This document shows, piece after piece, positions 11,154 to 39,820 of a DNA stretch of 39,918 nucleotides (positions are counted from its first letter, which is position 1; the number at the start of each line of letters is the position of its first letter). The stretch comes from Ilyobacter polytropus (GTDB lineage Bacteria > Fusobacteriota > Fusobacteriia > Fusobacteriales > Fusobacteriaceae): NCBI GenBank assembly GCA_003246855.1, contig QKCP01000136.1, positions 1 to 39,918 on the forward strand, read 5' to 3'. Below the pieces are notes generated by a model that worked only from the letters and a program-made list of their open reading frames with translations, searched no databases and was not told the DNA's origin. The position numbers and the translations under genes are program-made.

Positions 11154-11801
11154 ATGAGGGATCTTACAAATTTAAAGGAAAAATCATACGATATATTGAA
11201 GTCGAAAATAATAGAAGGGGAATTTGGTCCGAATTTTCGGCTTGATGAGAGAGAATTGGGCAAGCTTTTGGGGATGAGCAGGACTCCGATAAGGGAGGCT
11301 ATAAGCAAATTGGAATTAGAAGACTGGGTGAAAGTTATTCCTAGAAAAGGGGTTTTTGTTAATGAGATCACTTTGAAAGATGTCAACGATATTTTTCAAA
11401 TTAGAGATAACGTTGAACCGTTTATAGTAGAATTGGCTATGGAAAATATAGAAAATACAAAACTGGTGGAATTCGAGGAAGAAGTCCTTAAATATATAAA
11501 TTTAAAAGAGATGGAAAAAGAATTAGACAAAATAGACCATGAACTGCACAATTATATTTTGGAATCTTCTAAAAATAAACACCTTATAAAACTTATAAAA
11601 AATATATATGAACATAATATTTGGATAAGAAATTTATTCGTTCAAAAAAAGACAAGAAGACTTGAAGCGGCAAATGAGCACTTAGAAATTATTCAAGCAA
11701 TGAAAGATCGAGATATAGATAATGCTAAAAAAGCTGTAAGAAAACATAATTACAATTCAAAAGTAGGATTTTTATTAAATATTGGAAATCTAAGTGTTTA
11801 G
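11154..11801 (+). CDS. GntR family regulator, FCD type (paralog 1)
   Basis: N-terminal wHTH LGMSRTPIREAISKLE and all-helical C-terminal domain; 215 aa. Confidence 0.9.
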   Translation: MRDLTNLKEKSYDILKSKIIEGEFGPNFRLDERELGKLLGMSRTPIREAISKLELEDWVKVIPRKGVFVNEITLKDVNDIFQIRDNVEPFIVELAMENIENTKLVEFEEEVLKYINLKEMEKELDKIDHELHNYILESSKNKHLIKLIKNIYEHNIWIRNLFVQKKTRRLEAANEHLEIIQAMKDRDIDNAKKAVRKHNYNSKVGFLLNIGNLSV

Positions 11802-11977: not shown

Positions 11978-12637
11978 CTAGATGTTAAGGTTGCCTATAT
12001 TCATTAAGAAACCTATCCTTGAATTTTGATTATGTGCAGTGATGGCGTTTTGAGCCTTTTCAACATCTCTAGATTTCAAAGCTTGAACAATTTCTAGGTG
12101 TTCTTTGATAGCTTCCGAACGTCTTCCTTTATTTTGTTTTGTCAGGTTTCTTATTCTGGCGTTATGCTCATATACGTTTTTCATTAGTTTTATAAGATGC
12201 TTGTTGTTAGATGCTTCTAAAATACATAGATGAAGCTCGTTATCTAATTTATCTAATTTTTTTGCATCTTCAGGTGATATGCTGTCTAATTCCATATACA
12301 TTGAAAATTCTTTCTCAAATCGAAGTAATTCCTTATCTTGAAGATTTTCGATTGAAAAATTCACTAATAGTGGCTCTATACTTGCTCTGATCTGAAAAAT
12401 ATCGTTTATATCTTTTAAAGTAATTTCACTTACGAAGATACCCTTTCTCGGTATTATGGTAACTAGATCATCCTGCTCTAACTTGCTGAGAGCTTCTCTT
12501 ACAGGCGTTCGGCTGACTCCGATGAGGGCACTTACTTCCCTCTCGTCCAGCCTGAAGTTTGGCTTAAACTCTCCTGATATTATTTTTGATTTTAAAATTT
12601 CATAAGTTTTATCTTTAAGATTTGATTTATTTTTCAT
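11978..12637 (-). CDS. GntR family regulator, FCD type (paralog 2)
   Basis: Highly similar to the 11154-11801 product (PNFRLDERE, SRTPVREALSKLE, IPRKGIFVSEITLKDINDIFQIR); ATG at 12637 preceded by GGAGG. Confidence 0.9.
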   Translation of the reverse strand: MKNKSNLKDKTYEILKSKIISGEFKPNFRLDEREVSALIGVSRTPVREALSKLEQDDLVTIIPRKGIFVSEITLKDINDIFQIRASIEPLLVNFSIENLQDKELLRFEKEFSMYMELDSISPEDAKKLDKLDNELHLCILEASNNKHLIKLMKNVYEHNARIRNLTKQNKGRRSEAIKEHLEIVQALKSRDVEKAQNAITAHNQNSRIGFLMNIGNLNI

Positions 12638-12779
12638 GAAAATACCTCCAATATATTTTAGGCATGTTATAAATATACACAAATTTTCATTATTTTTCAA
12701 GAAATTTTATTTATAAATTTCATTAATATACTAACGAATTTCAATTAGAGCTCTAAACTTTTTAAAAAAATACCTCTTT

Positions 12780-31648: not shown

Positions 31649-31975
31649 TTACTTGGCAAGTGACAATAAAAAATTTTCTGCATCTTCCCTTGAATACTCT
31701 TTATCGATAGAGCCTTTTGAATGAGAATTCCCTGTTCGGTTTACTCCGTTTTGTAACTTGTTTGAAATTTTATGTAAATTTAAGCCGATCTCATATGTTT
31801 TTAATCTTTGGTCTTTAATTAAAATATACTCTTTTTCAAGCAAAGACTGCAATATATTGTGAGTGGTGCTCTTAGGCAAACCTAGTTGTTTTGCTATTTC
31901 TGTAACAGTCAAGTCTTTTGCAGAATTCGCAATCAATTCTAAAATATTTAAAGCCCTTAAAACCGCTTTATTCAA
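31649..31975 (-). CDS. Truncated IclR-family protein: HTH domain only (108 aa)
   Basis: NKAVLRALNILELIANSAKDLTVTEIAKQLGLPKSTTHNILQSLLEKEYI; no effector domain follows. Confidence 0.75.
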   Translation of the reverse strand: MNKAVLRALNILELIANSAKDLTVTEIAKQLGLPKSTTHNILQSLLEKEYILIKDQRLKTYEIGLNLHKISNKLQNGVNRTGNSHSKGSIDKEYSREDAENFLLSLAK

Positions 31976-34181: not shown

Positions 34182-34928
34182 CTAATAGCCAAGTTTTCTT
34201 GAAATTTCAGTACTTGTTTTTAAAAGTTCTTTAGACTCAGCTTCTATATCTCGGTCTTCTGAGAAAAATCCAGATATACTTATTGCTCCTACGACATCCT
34301 TTTTAAAATCAAAAATAGGTGCACCGATACACAGCATATGCTCTTCAACCTCTCTGTTGTCGATAGCATATCCCCTTTTTTTTATTTCCTGTAGTTCCTG
34401 AATTAGTTCCTCTTTTGAAAGTGTATATGAGGTTTTCTTTTCAAAGGACTGCATGGAAATTAGCTTTTTTATCTCTTCAGGGGATAAAAAGGCCAGTATG
34501 GCCTTTCCCAAAGATGTGCAGTACATGGGGTTTGTACTACCTACACCAGAAGTAGTAATAATTGCTTTTTCAGATTCATGCTTTGATATATATACAATCT
34601 CTCCAGAGTTTTCAACAGCATAGAAGATTGTTTTTCCTGTTTTTTCAGCTAGATCCTGAAGGGGCTTGTCGATAATTTTAAATATCTCCCTGTTTCTGGA
34701 ATAGCTGTTTCCTATCTGAAAGCTCTTTAGTCCGATTTTATAGAAGTTTAGCTCACCTGGATTTTTTTCTAGCATCTCCAAGTGGGCTAAAGTTTCTAAT
34801 ATGTCATAGGCGCTAGTTTTTGGGATCTTCATAATCTCTGTGATCTCCTTGACTGTTAGCCCGCTTTTCTCTTTAGATAAAAGTTCCAACATTTTAATGG
34901 TTCTCTCTACTGTTCTATTTAGTTTCAT
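34182..34928 (-). CDS. IclR-family transcriptional regulator (possible KdgR-type role)
   Basis: N-terminal HTH LTVKEITEIMKIPKTSAYDILETL; effector domain CTSLGKAILAFLSPEE...GYAIDNREVEEHMLCIGAPIFD. Confidence 0.92.
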   Translation of the reverse strand: MKLNRTVERTIKMLELLSKEKSGLTVKEITEIMKIPKTSAYDILETLAHLEMLEKNPGELNFYKIGLKSFQIGNSYSRNREIFKIIDKPLQDLAEKTGKTIFYAVENSGEIVYISKHESEKAIITTSGVGSTNPMYCTSLGKAILAFLSPEEIKKLISMQSFEKKTSYTLSKEELIQELQEIKKRGYAIDNREVEEHMLCIGAPIFDFKKDVVGAISISGFFSEDRDIEAESKELLKTSTEISRKLGY

Positions 34929-34991: not shown

Positions 34992-36008
34992 CTATCTACC
35001 AACGTCGTAAGAAACCCCTTTAAATAATTTTTCTACTTCATCTTTTGTAACAAGGTTTACATCACCTAATATTGTATGCTTTAATGCTGCTGATGCAGCT
35101 GCAAACTCGACTTTGTAGCTGTCGTCTACTTCAGCCAGGTATCCATAAAGGAATCCTGCTGTAAAAGCATCTCCGCTTCCTACCCTGTCGATAATGTCTA
35201 CCTCGTATTCTCTGGAAACGAGCATCTCTTTTCCGTTGAAGACAATACCCTTATAGATATTTTTTGAAGCAGATACTACTTTTCTAGCTGAAGATACTAT
35301 ATATTTAAATCCGTATTTTTCCATAACTTTTGGATATAAATCCTTGTAGCAGTTGAAGATGTTTTCTTCATAACAGCTCTCTTCCGAATGGAATCCAAGT
35401 ATATTTATAAAATCCAGGTATCCTGCAAAAGCGATGTCCACATATTTAAGGACCCTCTCAATTCCATTAGCCGCTTCATTAAGAGACCAAAGTTTACTTC
35501 TATAGTTAAAGTCGAAACTTACCGTAATACCTTTTTCTTTTGCTTTTTTCATAAAGTATTCACCCAATTCTAGAGCTTCTGGGCTTAAACCAAGAGTTAT
35601 TCCAGAAACGTGGAAAAGCGAAACTCCAGAAAAAATAGCATCTACATCAAATTCACTTACAGAGGCTTTGGAAATAGATGAATGTTTTCTGTCATAAATG
35701 ACCTTGCTGCTTCTGAGAGAAAAACCGTTTTCTAAAAAATATATACCAAGTCTCTCTCCTCCTCTTGCAATATATGACGTGTTCACACCAAAGCTCTCTA
35801 TATGACGTACAGCGGCTTCCCCAATCTCGTTATCAGGGACTTTTGTTATGGCTGTTGTATTTACTCCAAGAATGGAAAGGTTAACGGCAACATTTATCTC
35901 TGCACCACCATAGTTCACATCAAAAGAGCTTGAGTTTATGATCCTTTGATTTCCTGGTGGAGAAAGCCTTAATAGGACTTCTCCGAGAGTGACAACTTTT
36001 TTACTCAT
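34992..36008 (-). CDS. kdgK: 2-keto-3-deoxygluconate kinase (PfkB family)
   Basis: GEVLLRLSPPGNQRIINSSSFDVNYGGAEINVAVNLS; DRVGSGDAFTAGFLYG. Confidence 0.9.
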   Translation of the reverse strand: MSKKVVTLGEVLLRLSPPGNQRIINSSSFDVNYGGAEINVAVNLSILGVNTTAITKVPDNEIGEAAVRHIESFGVNTSYIARGGERLGIYFLENGFSLRSSKVIYDRKHSSISKASVSEFDVDAIFSGVSLFHVSGITLGLSPEALELGEYFMKKAKEKGITVSFDFNYRSKLWSLNEAANGIERVLKYVDIAFAGYLDFINILGFHSEESCYEENIFNCYKDLYPKVMEKYGFKYIVSSARKVVSASKNIYKGIVFNGKEMLVSREYEVDIIDRVGSGDAFTAGFLYGYLAEVDDSYKVEFAAASAALKHTILGDVNLVTKDEVEKLFKGVSYDVGR

Positions 36009-36021
36009 CTTATCATTTCAC

Positions 36022-36651
36022 CTATCCTCTCGCTAATTTTACTTTTTCTACGAACTCTTTAGATTTAGCCACTATCTCATCAAAAGAACCGCTAGTAAGC
36101 TGTCCTCCAACGCCAACTGCAATTACTCCATTTTTGATCCACTGATCTACATTCTCTAAACTTACTCCACCTGTAGGCATGATGTTTACTTGAGGAAGTG
36201 GGGCTTTTGCTGCTTTTACAAATGATGGTCCGAATGCGCTTCCAGGGAACATTTTTATGATGTCACACCCAGCTTCCATAGCTGTGATCATCTCTGTTAT
36301 AGTCATACATCCAGGCATGTATGGTATCTGGTATCTATTACAAAGTTTTGCTGTTTCAAGATCAAAAGCAGGGGAAACCACATATTCGGCCCCGGCTAAA
36401 ATCGCAATTCTAGCAGTTTCAGAATCCAATACACTACCAGCACCGACAAGCAGTTTTTCTGAAGGGATGGAATTTTTCAATTCTTTTATAACTTCTGTTG
36501 CACCAGGAACGGTATAAGTAACTTCTACAGCGGGGATTCCTCCCTCTATGCATGCTTTAGAGGTAGTGATTGCTTCTTCTATATTTTCTCCTCTAATAAC
36601 TGCTACAACACCAACATCTTTAATTTTCTTTAAAACTTCAAATTTTTTCAT
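36022..36651 (-). CDS. eda: KDPG aldolase (2-dehydro-3-deoxyphosphogluconate aldolase)
   Basis: VVAVIRGENIEEA, GIPAVEVTYTVPGA, VGAGSVLDSETA, FDLETAKLCNRYQIPYMPGCMT, KMFPGSAFGPSFVKA, MPTGGVSLENV. Confidence 0.95.
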   Translation of the reverse strand: MKKFEVLKKIKDVGVVAVIRGENIEEAITTSKACIEGGIPAVEVTYTVPGATEVIKELKNSIPSEKLLVGAGSVLDSETARIAILAGAEYVVSPAFDLETAKLCNRYQIPYMPGCMTITEMITAMEAGCDIIKMFPGSAFGPSFVKAAKAPLPQVNIMPTGGVSLENVDQWIKNGVIAVGVGGQLTSGSFDEIVAKSKEFVEKVKLARG

Positions 36652-36659
36652 TTTTTCCT

Positions 36660-36738
36660 CCTGTTCTTATATCCGAATCAAATACATAAATACGATTAAT
36701 AGTATTTTAGAACTTATTTTTGAATTTGTCAAGAAAAA
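36660..36738 (-). promoter_or_regulatory. Promoter and leader operator of eda-kdgK (minus strand TTGACA-N17-TAAAAT, then ATCGTATTTATGTATTTGATTCGGATATAAGAACA)
   Basis: Near-identical arrangement upstream of the 43-aa ORF (39740-39820). Confidence 0.8.
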
Positions 36739-36895: not shown

Positions 36896-37531
36896 CTATA
36901 TTTCATCCGCCAGGTGTTTATAATAGCACAGAGGTCTTTTTGAATTTTCCTGGTGTACTATCCTAGTTATTTTTTCTACAGTATGCAGGTATTTGAGGTA
37001 TTTTCTAACTGTAGTTATTGAAAGCTTCAGTTGACCTCCTATCTCCGAGGTCGTCATAAATTTTTTATTTATTTTCATGAAGTCGTTGATTCTGTCGAGG
37101 GTTCTTTTATTCAAGGATGTGGCGAACGCCAGGGAATCTTTTATGATAACCCCGTCCCCCCTATCTTTTATGTTGCCGGATTTTTGATAATAGTTTTCAA
37201 AAACTTTCTTGAATTCCTTGAATTCAAAGGGTTTTATAAGATAATCTACCATCCCGAATTTTAAGTATGAGCCTAAGTTTCTCATCTCTCGAAAGTAGGT
37301 TAATGGGATTATATCGGAGTTTAATTTTAGACTTTTAAGCTCTTTCATAAAGCTTAGATTGTCCGAGACATCTAATACTATAAGGTCTATTCGACTATTT
37401 TTATAGATATCCTTTATTGCGTCTACACTACCAACCGTGCCTACAACTTCAAATTCATCGATACTGCTTATATGGGATGCGTATAGATTCCCCACCCACG
37501 GTTTGTACGTTGCTATCAAAACATTTATCAA
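36896..37531 (-). CDS. Orphan response regulator, CitB/DcuR-like, with atypical receiver domain
   Basis: Receiver LIVLDV and YLIKPF retained, acidic pair replaced by ATYK; C-terminal HTH TSEIGGQLKLSITTVRKYLKYL; TTG start after GAGGTG. Confidence 0.75.
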   Translation of the reverse strand: MINVLIATYKPWVGNLYASHISSIDEFEVVGTVGSVDAIKDIYKNSRIDLIVLDVSDNLSFMKELKSLKLNSDIIPLTYFREMRNLGSYLKFGMVDYLIKPFEFKEFKKVFENYYQKSGNIKDRGDGVIIKDSLAFATSLNKRTLDRINDFMKINKKFMTTSEIGGQLKLSITTVRKYLKYLHTVEKITRIVHQENSKRPLCYYKHLADEI

Positions 37532-37626: not shown

Positions 37627-38004
37627 TCACTTATATTTTGTTTCAGAAACCAAAATTTTTTCTAAATTACCCATTTTTTTAGAAATATTATTTATCCTAA
37701 ATTCTAGAGAATTCAGCATCCAAAACTGAAAATGATTTATCTTTTGCTGTTCATGTATCATCCAGGCAATTTTTAGTGAAACCAATAAAACACCTATTTC
37801 GAGAGAAAGAGGCATGGATATTTTATGCAGAACGGCTCCTAGAATAAAAACAGCAACAACACAAACTAAAAATACGACATTTATAATAATATTTGTTTTT
37901 GATTTGTGTGTTCCGCCTATTTTACCGATTATTTCTTTTACCTTTTTCTTTTCATTTTCAAAATCTTTAAGTTCTTTTTTCAAATCTTCATACTTGTTTT
38001 CCAT
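37627..38004 (-). CDS. Uncharacterised 125-aa coiled-coil plus two-TM protein
   Basis: Charged helices flank hydrophobic IIINVVFLVCVVAVFILGAVL and ISMPLSLEIGVLLVSLKIAWM; 12-nt gap from upstream gene. Confidence 0.65.
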   Translation of the reverse strand: MENKYEDLKKELKDFENEKKKVKEIIGKIGGTHKSKTNIIINVVFLVCVVAVFILGAVLHKISMPLSLEIGVLLVSLKIAWMIHEQQKINHFQFWMLNSLEFRINNISKKMGNLEKILVSETKYK

Positions 38005-38016
38005 ATTAATACTCCA

Positions 38017-39558
38017 TCATATGCTTATTAAAGAGTAAACAACGCCAGCAAATCCAAACACAGCAAGCGACATTACCAATTTAGAAGCCATCTTGCCATT
38101 GTTCTCTACAGCGTTTCCGAATATTCCAAAAACAAAAGGGTGCACCAAAAACGGCATAGCGAATATAAATGCTATTAACGCAGACGCAGCTTCTCCAAAC
38201 ATGCCGCCTTGTACAGCTGCAAAAAGTCCGAAGTGTGAAAGGGCCGAAGAGACAGCTATGGAGACGTGCTCTAATGGCATGCCGGCTAGGTTAAGCAGCG
38301 TAAAGCTTGCAAAAACTGCTATGATCTGCCATCCAAATGAAAACTGCATAAGTCCTTTTACCTCTTTGACTTCATCTCCATTTGAATTTTTTAGAGTTTT
38401 GATAGACATAACAGTCAGGATAAGCCCTACGACAACAATTGGTAGCGTCCATTCTAAAATTATGCTTCCACGGCTAGCACTTGCAGCCAAAATTGAAAAC
38501 ACGAATATATGCCCGAAAAAAGGGATATTTATCATTATTGGAGCCCTCGATGCGGCTTTCTCCCCCAAGTCCCCCCCGGTGCATGCCCCGGTAAGACCAG
38601 AATGAGACAGTGCCCCGGCCATTCCAGGTGCTATATTTCTCACGTGGTTTGCTTTTCCCAAGAATATCAGTATAGCCATGCCTGCAAACATCCAAAATAT
38701 CTGTCCCATGAATCCATAAACTATTACATTGGCTACGCCGGAGATCTTAAATGCTTCCCCTATTCTGGAACCTCCCACCAAAAAGTTTCCGGCTAACACG
38801 ATTGGGATTCCTGCAAACAGCAAGGAGTTGATTGTTGGGCCGAATTTCCAGTTTGAAAATGCCATGCCAAGTGAAGCCGATATTAGCATTGCAAAGAAGA
38901 TTTGCGGGAGTGCGATTACTGGTTTTACAAGCTCGGCTATATGCATGGAAAGCAGCAAGACTCCTAAAATAACCATGAATTCGATTAAACCTTTTCTTAT
39001 ATAGTTTTGTTTGCTCTTTATCCTCGCCTTTTTATCGATAAAAATTATTGATAAAACTATGCTGAGATACGCCAGTAAAAGGTATGATCCCCCAAAAGAG
39101 TCGCTTTTAGAGATCCCTGATAATAACCTGTAAACAGTTTCGACACCTATTAAAAGCAAGAAAGCTCTTAGCAGAAAGAAAAACTGCGTGCTGTTTGTCC
39201 CCAGTATAACCTCTTCCTCAGAAGGGACCATGATGGTGTCAATATCAAGTTCCTCTTTAAAAAGCAGTTTTTTAATCTCTTGGCCGCCAACAAAGAAAGA
39301 TGCTACAAGAGCAATGATAGTAGTTTTGCTAGCCAGAACTATCATTGGGAACTCTTCAAGCCCAGGAGTAGCCACTTGACTTTTTACCATAACAAAGCCT
39401 AAAGTAAGGCCGAATACGACGACTATGAGTATGGAAGAATACCTGGTTCCTGCCACCACTGTTCTTGCGACTAATACCATGCTTATAAGCATTACCATGG
39501 TAAGGAAAAAGTGATTTAGTGCATAAATATGTGAGAATTGTTCCAATAAATTATTCAA
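38017..39558 (-). CDS. Uncharacterised polytopic membrane protein (513 aa), putative transporter with internal duplication
   Basis: More than 10 hydrophobic segments; duplicated SHxGLxxAxxGGxxGE...PFxxHxFVFxI; RBS AGGAGG upstream. Confidence 0.8.
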   Translation of the reverse strand: MNNLLEQFSHIYALNHFFLTMVMLISMVLVARTVVAGTRYSSILIVVVFGLTLGFVMVKSQVATPGLEEFPMIVLASKTTIIALVASFFVGGQEIKKLLFKEELDIDTIMVPSEEEVILGTNSTQFFFLLRAFLLLIGVETVYRLLSGISKSDSFGGSYLLLAYLSIVLSIIFIDKKARIKSKQNYIRKGLIEFMVILGVLLLSMHIAELVKPVIALPQIFFAMLISASLGMAFSNWKFGPTINSLLFAGIPIVLAGNFLVGGSRIGEAFKISGVANVIVYGFMGQIFWMFAGMAILIFLGKANHVRNIAPGMAGALSHSGLTGACTGGDLGEKAASRAPIMINIPFFGHIFVFSILAASASRGSIILEWTLPIVVVGLILTVMSIKTLKNSNGDEVKEVKGLMQFSFGWQIIAVFASFTLLNLAGMPLEHVSIAVSSALSHFGLFAAVQGGMFGEAASALIAFIFAMPFLVHPFVFGIFGNAVENNGKMASKLVMSLAVFGFAGVVYSLISI

Positions 39559-39595: not shown

Positions 39596-39727
39596 TTAAT
39601 TTAAAAATAGTGTTTGGGCCCTAAATTCTAGGATTTTGACTAAAAGGTAGGGAAACCAGTTAATGGAAAGTAGGAAAAGAGAAATTGCTATAATTTTATA
39701 GACGATATATTTTTTATTGTTAGACAT
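39596..39727 (-). CDS. 43-aa single-TM microprotein: MSNNKKYIVYKIIAISLFLLSINWFPYLLVKILEFRAQTLFLN (not in ORF track)
   Basis: Manual translation of minus strand; RBS AAGGAAGG; hydrophobic core; 37 nt upstream of the 513-aa gene; preceded by strong promoter. Confidence 0.65.
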   Translation of the reverse strand: MSNNKKYIVYKIIAISLFLLSINWFPYLLVKILEFRAQTLFLN

Positions 39728-39739
39728 AATTTCCTTCCT

Positions 39740-39820
39740 TTTTCTTGTTCACATATACGAACTAAAAACATAAATGCGATTTCGAGTAATTTTAGCCCAT
39801 TTTATTTATTTTGTCAAGTA
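39740..39820 (-). promoter_or_regulatory. Promoter and leader operator of membrane operon (minus strand TTGACA-N17-TAAAAT, then ATCGCATTTATGTTTTTAGTTCGTATATGTGAACA)
   Basis: Matches the eda-kdgK promoter/leader. Confidence 0.8.

Follow-up and report, generated by a model that had tools for sequence, protein, structure and literature searches.

Secondary carriers of the 2HCT (CitS) and ESS (GltS) families contain a duplication with glycine-rich re-entrant hairpins that enter the membrane from opposite sides, and the core of the CNT carriers is laid out as TM, hairpin, broken TM and TM, repeated in inverted orientation. Internal duplication and re-entrant hairpins are described for CitS and for elevator-type carriers (PMC4718727, PMC7329351), and the characters common to the elevator type include inverted repeats and helical hairpins (PMC7329351). 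Analysis of a 39,918-nucleotide stretch of the Ilyobacter polytropus genome (the window) indicated that a 513-aa protein encoded there belongs to a genuine, strongly conserved and unclassified transporter-like family. Few membrane families combine such conservation across phyla with absence from Pfam, NCBIfam and, at the level of the fold, the PDB.

The gene is an open frame of 513 codons on the minus strand with a TTG start and an AGGAGG ribosome-binding site immediately upstream, as expected from the initial annotation, which had placed an uncharacterised membrane protein of this length here. Searches with the protein against Pfam, NCBIfam and PADLOC (hmmscan, E up to 1) and against all PDB sequences (phmmer, and hmmsearch with a 49-sequence profile, E up to 10) returned zero matches, and the 49 homologues compared with Pfam (hmmscan, E up to 10) gave scattered sub-threshold unrelated families, with no transporter family appearing consistently. 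The family is unclassified by Pfam, NCBIfam, PADLOC and the PDB, and may bear a name in AlphaFold DB, InterPro or TCDB. The coordinates of the gene, its core repeats and the surrounding features are collected in Table 1.

Table 1. Features of the 513-aa protein locus and of the neighbouring eda-kdgK cluster (positions in the window).
Feature	Position	Strand	Basis
Presumed KdgR, an IclR-family regulator clustered with eda-kdgK	34182..34928	-	PF01614/PF09339; order same in three relatives
kdgK, KDG kinase (PfkB family)	34992..36008	-	PF00294, KDG-kinase-like NCBIfam matches
eda, KHG/KDPG aldolase	36022..36651	-	PF01081, NF005119
eda-kdgK copy of the probable KdgR operator, conserved before eda in G033, G025, G013 and G018	36663..36697	-	Pattern search
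DcuR/CitB-like orphan response regulator whose acidic pocket is degenerate; lies between the 513-aa protein operon and eda	36896..37531	-	Profile matches; paralogue on C83
125-aa small membrane protein, 13 bp after the 513-aa gene, Fusobacteriaceae family	37627..38004	-	ORF, family search
Core repeat 2, residues ~395-513: TM12, hairpin 2 (SHFGLFAAVQGGMFG), TM13 (PFLVHPFVF), TM14	38020..38376	-	hhalign, DSSP of models, conservation
Core repeat 1, residues ~272-390: TM9, hairpin 1 (SHSGLTGACTGGDLG), broken TM10 (PFFGHIFVF), TM11	38389..38745	-	hhalign, DSSP of models, conservation
513-aa polytopic membrane protein, unclassified transporter family	38017..39558	-	ORF; homologues in 12 phylum-level groups; AlphaFold2 pLDDT 87.7, pTM 0.86
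43-aa single-helix ORF between promoter and 513-aa gene, 37 bp before the latter, own ribosome-binding site	39596..39727	-	Found in this genome alone among the loci checked
Operon copy of the probable KdgR (IclR) operator, matching the eda copy at 28/35 positions	39747..39781	-	Sequence comparison
Operon promoter, sigma-70-like TTGACA-17-TAAAAT	39789..39817	-	Sequence

A scan of bacterial genome contigs, which used exact short patterns so that more distant relatives may exist, recovered at least 118 loci, the best 80 of which encode proteins with 52-75% identity over almost the full length. The 49 members that were aligned have a mean column identity of 71% and come from 12 phylum-level groups, and their tree matches taxonomy only roughly. 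Many of the relatives are found in alkaliphilic or halophilic Bacillaceae, soda-lake bins, Exiguobacterium, Vibrio, Photobacterium and marine bacteria, and the gene is present in 7 of 98 Fusobacteriota genomes. Plasmid carriage was represented by one chromid copy in Photobacterium, with weak matches absent, and no intermediate or more distant paralogue turned up in these searches. Outside the Fusobacteriaceae the gene usually stands alone among heterogeneous neighbours; no gene neighbourhood conserved across phyla was found, and uronate genes were not nearby. A search with Rfam at the gathering threshold, covering the window and 39 loci, gave no riboswitch or other RNA element at the gene or its homologues.

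Comparison of the protein with itself revealed a best ungapped match between residues 306-356 and 429-479 (offset 123, 19/51 identities), whose BLOSUM62 score of 89 exceeds those of the shuffled protein (mean 37, sd 5.4, max 69, n=200). Profile-profile alignment (hhalign, residues 272-394 vs 392-513) extended the match to ~112 columns (274-387 / 399-511, probability 97%, E 8.8e-11). The C-terminal half is thus a true tandem repeat; the two matching ~40-residue segments reported in the initial annotation are both present and the duplication is real, but its unit is ~115 residues long. Within the N-terminal half a weak and unproven repeat was detected by profile comparison (residues 20-42 / 246-268, E 4e-4, probability 35%). 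Among the 49 homologues the positions S318/441, H319/442, G321/444, L322/445, A325/448, G332/455, P346/469, F347/470, H350/473, V353/476 and F354/477 are invariant and identical in both copies, and G329/452 is nearly so. The conserved core of the repeat reads SHxGLxxA, [AG]GxxG and PFxxHxxVF, with four invariant histidines (H319, H350, H442 and H473); C326 and D330 are also invariant in the family. The motifs SHxGL and PFxxHxFVF noticed earlier are in substance family traits (the latter as PFxxHxxVF), but the accompanying GGxxGE is a local accident and no family motif, because its first glycine is alanine (AGxxG) in 47 of the 49 homologues in copy 1 and its glutamate varies in both copies.

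An AlphaFold2 model built from the family alignment was of good overall quality (scores in Table 1), and the C-terminal half modelled alone (pLDDT 88.4, pTM 0.88) had the same helix pattern as in the whole model. In the models each core repeat consists of a long helix, two short helices (12 and 8 residues) broken at SHxGL, a long helix and a further helix, the second of the two long helices being kinked at PFxxH in copy 1. From the helix positions and the charge pattern we infer ~14 transmembrane helices. Lysine and arginine residues counted over the alignment in the loops of the C-terminal half amounted to ~6.3 per protein inside vs 0.9 outside when the hairpins were taken as re-entrant, and to 4.4 inside vs 2.8 outside when they were taken as crossing. 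This distribution favours inverted repeats in which the predicted hairpins would be re-entrant from opposite sides, with three crossings per repeat.

Foldseek searches of the whole model and of the C-terminal half against the PDB gave no match at E<=1e-3, and the TM-scores of the matches listed were ~0.33 or less; the method is sequential, so that a permuted order of elements could escape it. Comparison with a viral structure library gave weak, low-TM matches only. The lack of family recognition in the initial annotation is thus paralleled in the sequence libraries and in the structures of the PDB, and its proposal of a duplicated-domain transporter gains good support from the true repeat, from a positive-inside pattern that fits inverted repeats and from the empty library searches. 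The internal repeat of the core domain that characterises the elevator type was found in the protein; since the fold matches no solved carrier, the elevator reading draws on topology and repeat only.

The invariance of H319, H350, H442, H473, C326 and D330, together with a fold that matches no carrier, would also suit an enzyme or redox subunit embedded in the membrane that binds metal with the help of the four intramembrane histidines. We consider this very improbable: the protein has neither a partner enzyme nor a soluble domain, tandem repeats interrupted in hairpin-like fashion are characteristic of carriers, and in this genome the 125-aa partner is encoded directly behind known carriers. 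The protein is, with high probability, a transporter.

The eda promoter is the same as that of the operon of the 513-aa protein (Table 1), and each is followed by the similar 35-nucleotide block. When the upstream regions of the window were compared in 231 pairs, one low-complexity T/A-rich pair alone outscored this block, which occurs at two sites genome-wide (up to 3 mismatches), before the operon and before eda-kdgK. In other Fusobacteriaceae the pattern was found once each in four genomes, always between the promoter and the start of eda-kdgK, and the IclR gene follows eda-kdgK in three of these four relatives. Because it is conserved before eda-kdgK in the four relatives, the element is a good candidate operator of the clustered IclR regulator, and the copy shared by the operon and eda-kdgK is, judged by sequence, probably a KdgR operator. 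The promoter match with eda-kdgK claimed earlier is therefore stronger than had been stated. Three of the four relatives bearing the element also encode the 513-aa protein; comparison of two of their upstream regions gave at best 20-22/33 identities, no more than shuffled sequence does, and a search for the pattern across all three genomes found the eda site only. Because the element was undetected at the gene in the relatives tested, the uronate link is private to the I. polytropus genome; membership of the uronate/KDG regulon is probable there and was not found as a trait of the family.

Elsewhere in the window, GGTATAC palindromes within a 27/35 identical block are common to the promoters of TRAP and uxaC genes (upstream of 13167 and 16144); this operator differs from the one at eda and the 513-aa protein operon and probably belongs to a regulator of the GntR family encoded in the window. 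Two GntR-family regulator genes of close similarity lie tail-to-tail at 11154-11801 (+) and 11978-12700 (-). A short IclR-type ORF at 31649-31975 (-) contains the N-terminal helix-turn-helix domain only and is probably a truncated regulator.

The initial annotation had proposed a transporter of the uronate pathway. An operator and promoter common only to this gene and eda-kdgK in the genome, in a window full of pectin and galacturonate genes, are what a carrier of hexuronates, KDG or unsaturated oligogalacturonides for the pectin pathway would lead one to expect, and the regulatory link to KDG metabolism holds in this genome. The substrate claim fares less well, since the gene in the relatives lacks the operator (found there at eda only), the homologues are usually stand-alone and not near uronate genes, the window already has three TRAP systems, a KdgT-family permease is encoded elsewhere in the genome, although its neighbours suggest another sugar acid, and the Fusobacteriaceae neighbours described below point to carboxylates of the pyruvate node. 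A uronate carrier is in our judgement unlikely, and less likely than a carrier of small carboxylates, and the uronate substrate is unfit for copying into annotation. What the locus does offer is a testable case of regulon recruitment, namely a family with no uronate link elsewhere that has a probable KdgR operator here. The KdgT-family permease (L192, contig C81) lies beside four-carbon-acid-kinase-like and PdxA-like genes, as read from their sequences, suggesting that it serves a sugar acid other than KDG.

The family of the 125-aa protein is present in 58 of 61 Fusobacteriaceae genomes and has no Pfam match over cut-off. In the I. polytropus genome the family has been duplicated (loci L187 on C83, L189 on C25 and L188 on C155): of four copies, one occupies the conserved position behind nadE, and three extra ones directly follow the 513-aa gene, a 2HCT carrier and a CstA-type carrier. 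The 2HCT carrier is accompanied by malic enzyme and by a two-component system of the CitAB type, whereas the CstA-type carrier lies beside a LytTR regulator; the best NCBIfam family of the latter carrier is the pyruvate/proton symporter CstA, below cut-off. A role of the 125-aa protein as a general transporter subunit was rejected, as its copies in relatives lie near nadE/folP or unrelated genes and not near carriers; for the same reason its association with carriers here is suggestive and not proof. The 43-aa ORF was likewise rejected as a conserved small upstream subunit, being private to the I. polytropus genome among the loci checked. In the orphan response regulator the acidic pocket EDD is replaced by TYK and no kinase lies nearby; it shares 37% identity with its paralogue in the 2HCT-malic enzyme locus on C83, a regulator that sits with its kinase.

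In one Fusobacteriaceae genus the 513-aa gene adjoins a CstA-type gene (L119, L121); in G004 (L117) it lies next to a CitAB-type two-component system, malic enzyme and 2HCT genes; and in G011 (L118) an operon of GntR, Etf, FAD oxidase and lactate permease genes follows it at a distance of 150 bp. These neighbours, the partner copies and the paralogue of the orphan regulator are suggestive of small carboxylates at the pyruvate node, an argument made after the fact. KDPG aldolase produces pyruvate and glyceraldehyde 3-phosphate, and the small-carboxylate reading fits co-expression with this enzyme because it yields pyruvate.

An NhaC-type gene near the gene in G023, the usual stand-alone position of the gene and the many relatives in haloalkaliphilic Bacillaceae, soda-lake bins and marine bacteria could also indicate an ion carrier (Na+/H+ antiporter or similar) for salt or alkali tolerance, with the organic-acid neighbours incidental. 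This is improbable, as expression in this genome appears, from its upstream sequence, tied to KDG metabolism, and the numerous invariant polar residues (Asn, Thr and Cys besides the four histidines) resemble an organic or metal ligand site.

Our best explanation, held tentatively and at a little under even confidence when taken whole, is that the protein is a secondary carrier, probably of an elevator-like kind, which transports small carboxylates and is co-regulated with eda-kdgK in this genome. Each core repeat of this secondary active transporter would comprise a TM, a re-entrant hairpin, a broken TM and a TM, the hairpins entering from opposite sides, and the N-terminal half would serve as scaffold. 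The SHxGL tips and the four symmetric histidines would line the substrate site, and the substrate, held at the two hairpin tips, would slide across the membrane; for this elevator-like mode the odds are about even. The driving ion would probably be Na+, because saline, alkaline or marine habitats are home to many of the relatives. The substrate would be a small organic anion of the pyruvate node (pyruvate, lactate or malate-like); the odds for a small carboxylate appear equal either way, and pyruvate itself is an unlikely cargo. The operon would comprise the 43-aa ORF, the 513-aa gene and the 125-aa partner, and is expected to be on during KDG breakdown because it shares its probable operator with eda-kdgK. 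Should the model prove right, the fold deserves to be solved, the more so as little of the Na+-driven uptake of nutrients by soda-lake and marine bacteria has been mapped. A bolder version, which we regard as doubtful, is that the protein founds a new class of secondary transporters with a fold unlike solved structures, in which an N-terminal scaffold would be combined with two consecutive inverted TM-hairpin-TM-TM repeats and symmetric histidines would bind a small carboxylate; transport would be driven by Na+, and haloalkaliphilic and marine bacteria would have passed the gene among themselves horizontally.

Inverted repeats with hairpins recur in several superfamilies (PMC7329351), and the protein might be a diverged or rearranged member of one of them (ion transporter, ESS, 2HCT, CNT or BART/KdgT); this would concern ancestry only and is compatible with the carboxylate-carrier reading. 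We hold such descent possible, at somewhat low probability, since the 49 members matched no transporter family consistently, the Foldseek searches described above were without a significant hit, and hhalign comparisons with GltS, CNT, KdgT, GntP, DctM and AEC were empty, which removed these six as detectable kin; the GntP, DctM and AEC targets were single sequences from the window and hence weak tests. The same procedure recovered true pairs (DctM1-DctM2, 100%; copy 1 and copy 2 of the present repeat). For ESS/GltS (PF03616) none of the 49 members matched at E<=10, and hhalign to 20 GltS sequences gave a probability of 0.1%. No sequence-profile match was obtained for 2HCT/CitS (PF03390), to which the real 2HCT protein of the genome scores 518 bits, for CNT (PF07662 / PF01773), with no CNT among the 50 listed Foldseek matches of the C-terminal half, or for KdgT (PF03812; hmmscan of homologues, hhalign).

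The likening to CitS and GltS made at the outset thus holds for the idea of a duplicated-domain carrier, but neither is a detectable relative (hmmscan, hhalign). Like the present protein both are polytopic with an internal duplication, and these two carry carboxylates; re-entrant hairpins are only predicted for the protein described here. Unlike CitS and GltS, it has both core repeats consecutive in the C-terminal half, not one per half, and it shares no sequence, profile or fold match with them. The predicted order of elements is alike on paper to that of the CNT core, but ~eight extra N-terminal helices set the protein apart. KdgT, a 2-keto-3-deoxygluconate permease, would suit a KDG regulon, but the protein has no similarity to it. 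The CstA/BtsT pyruvate symporters are unrelated in sequence, with no CstA match for the protein or its homologues (hmmscan), but in Fusobacteriaceae they share with it both gene neighbourhood and the 125-aa partner family.
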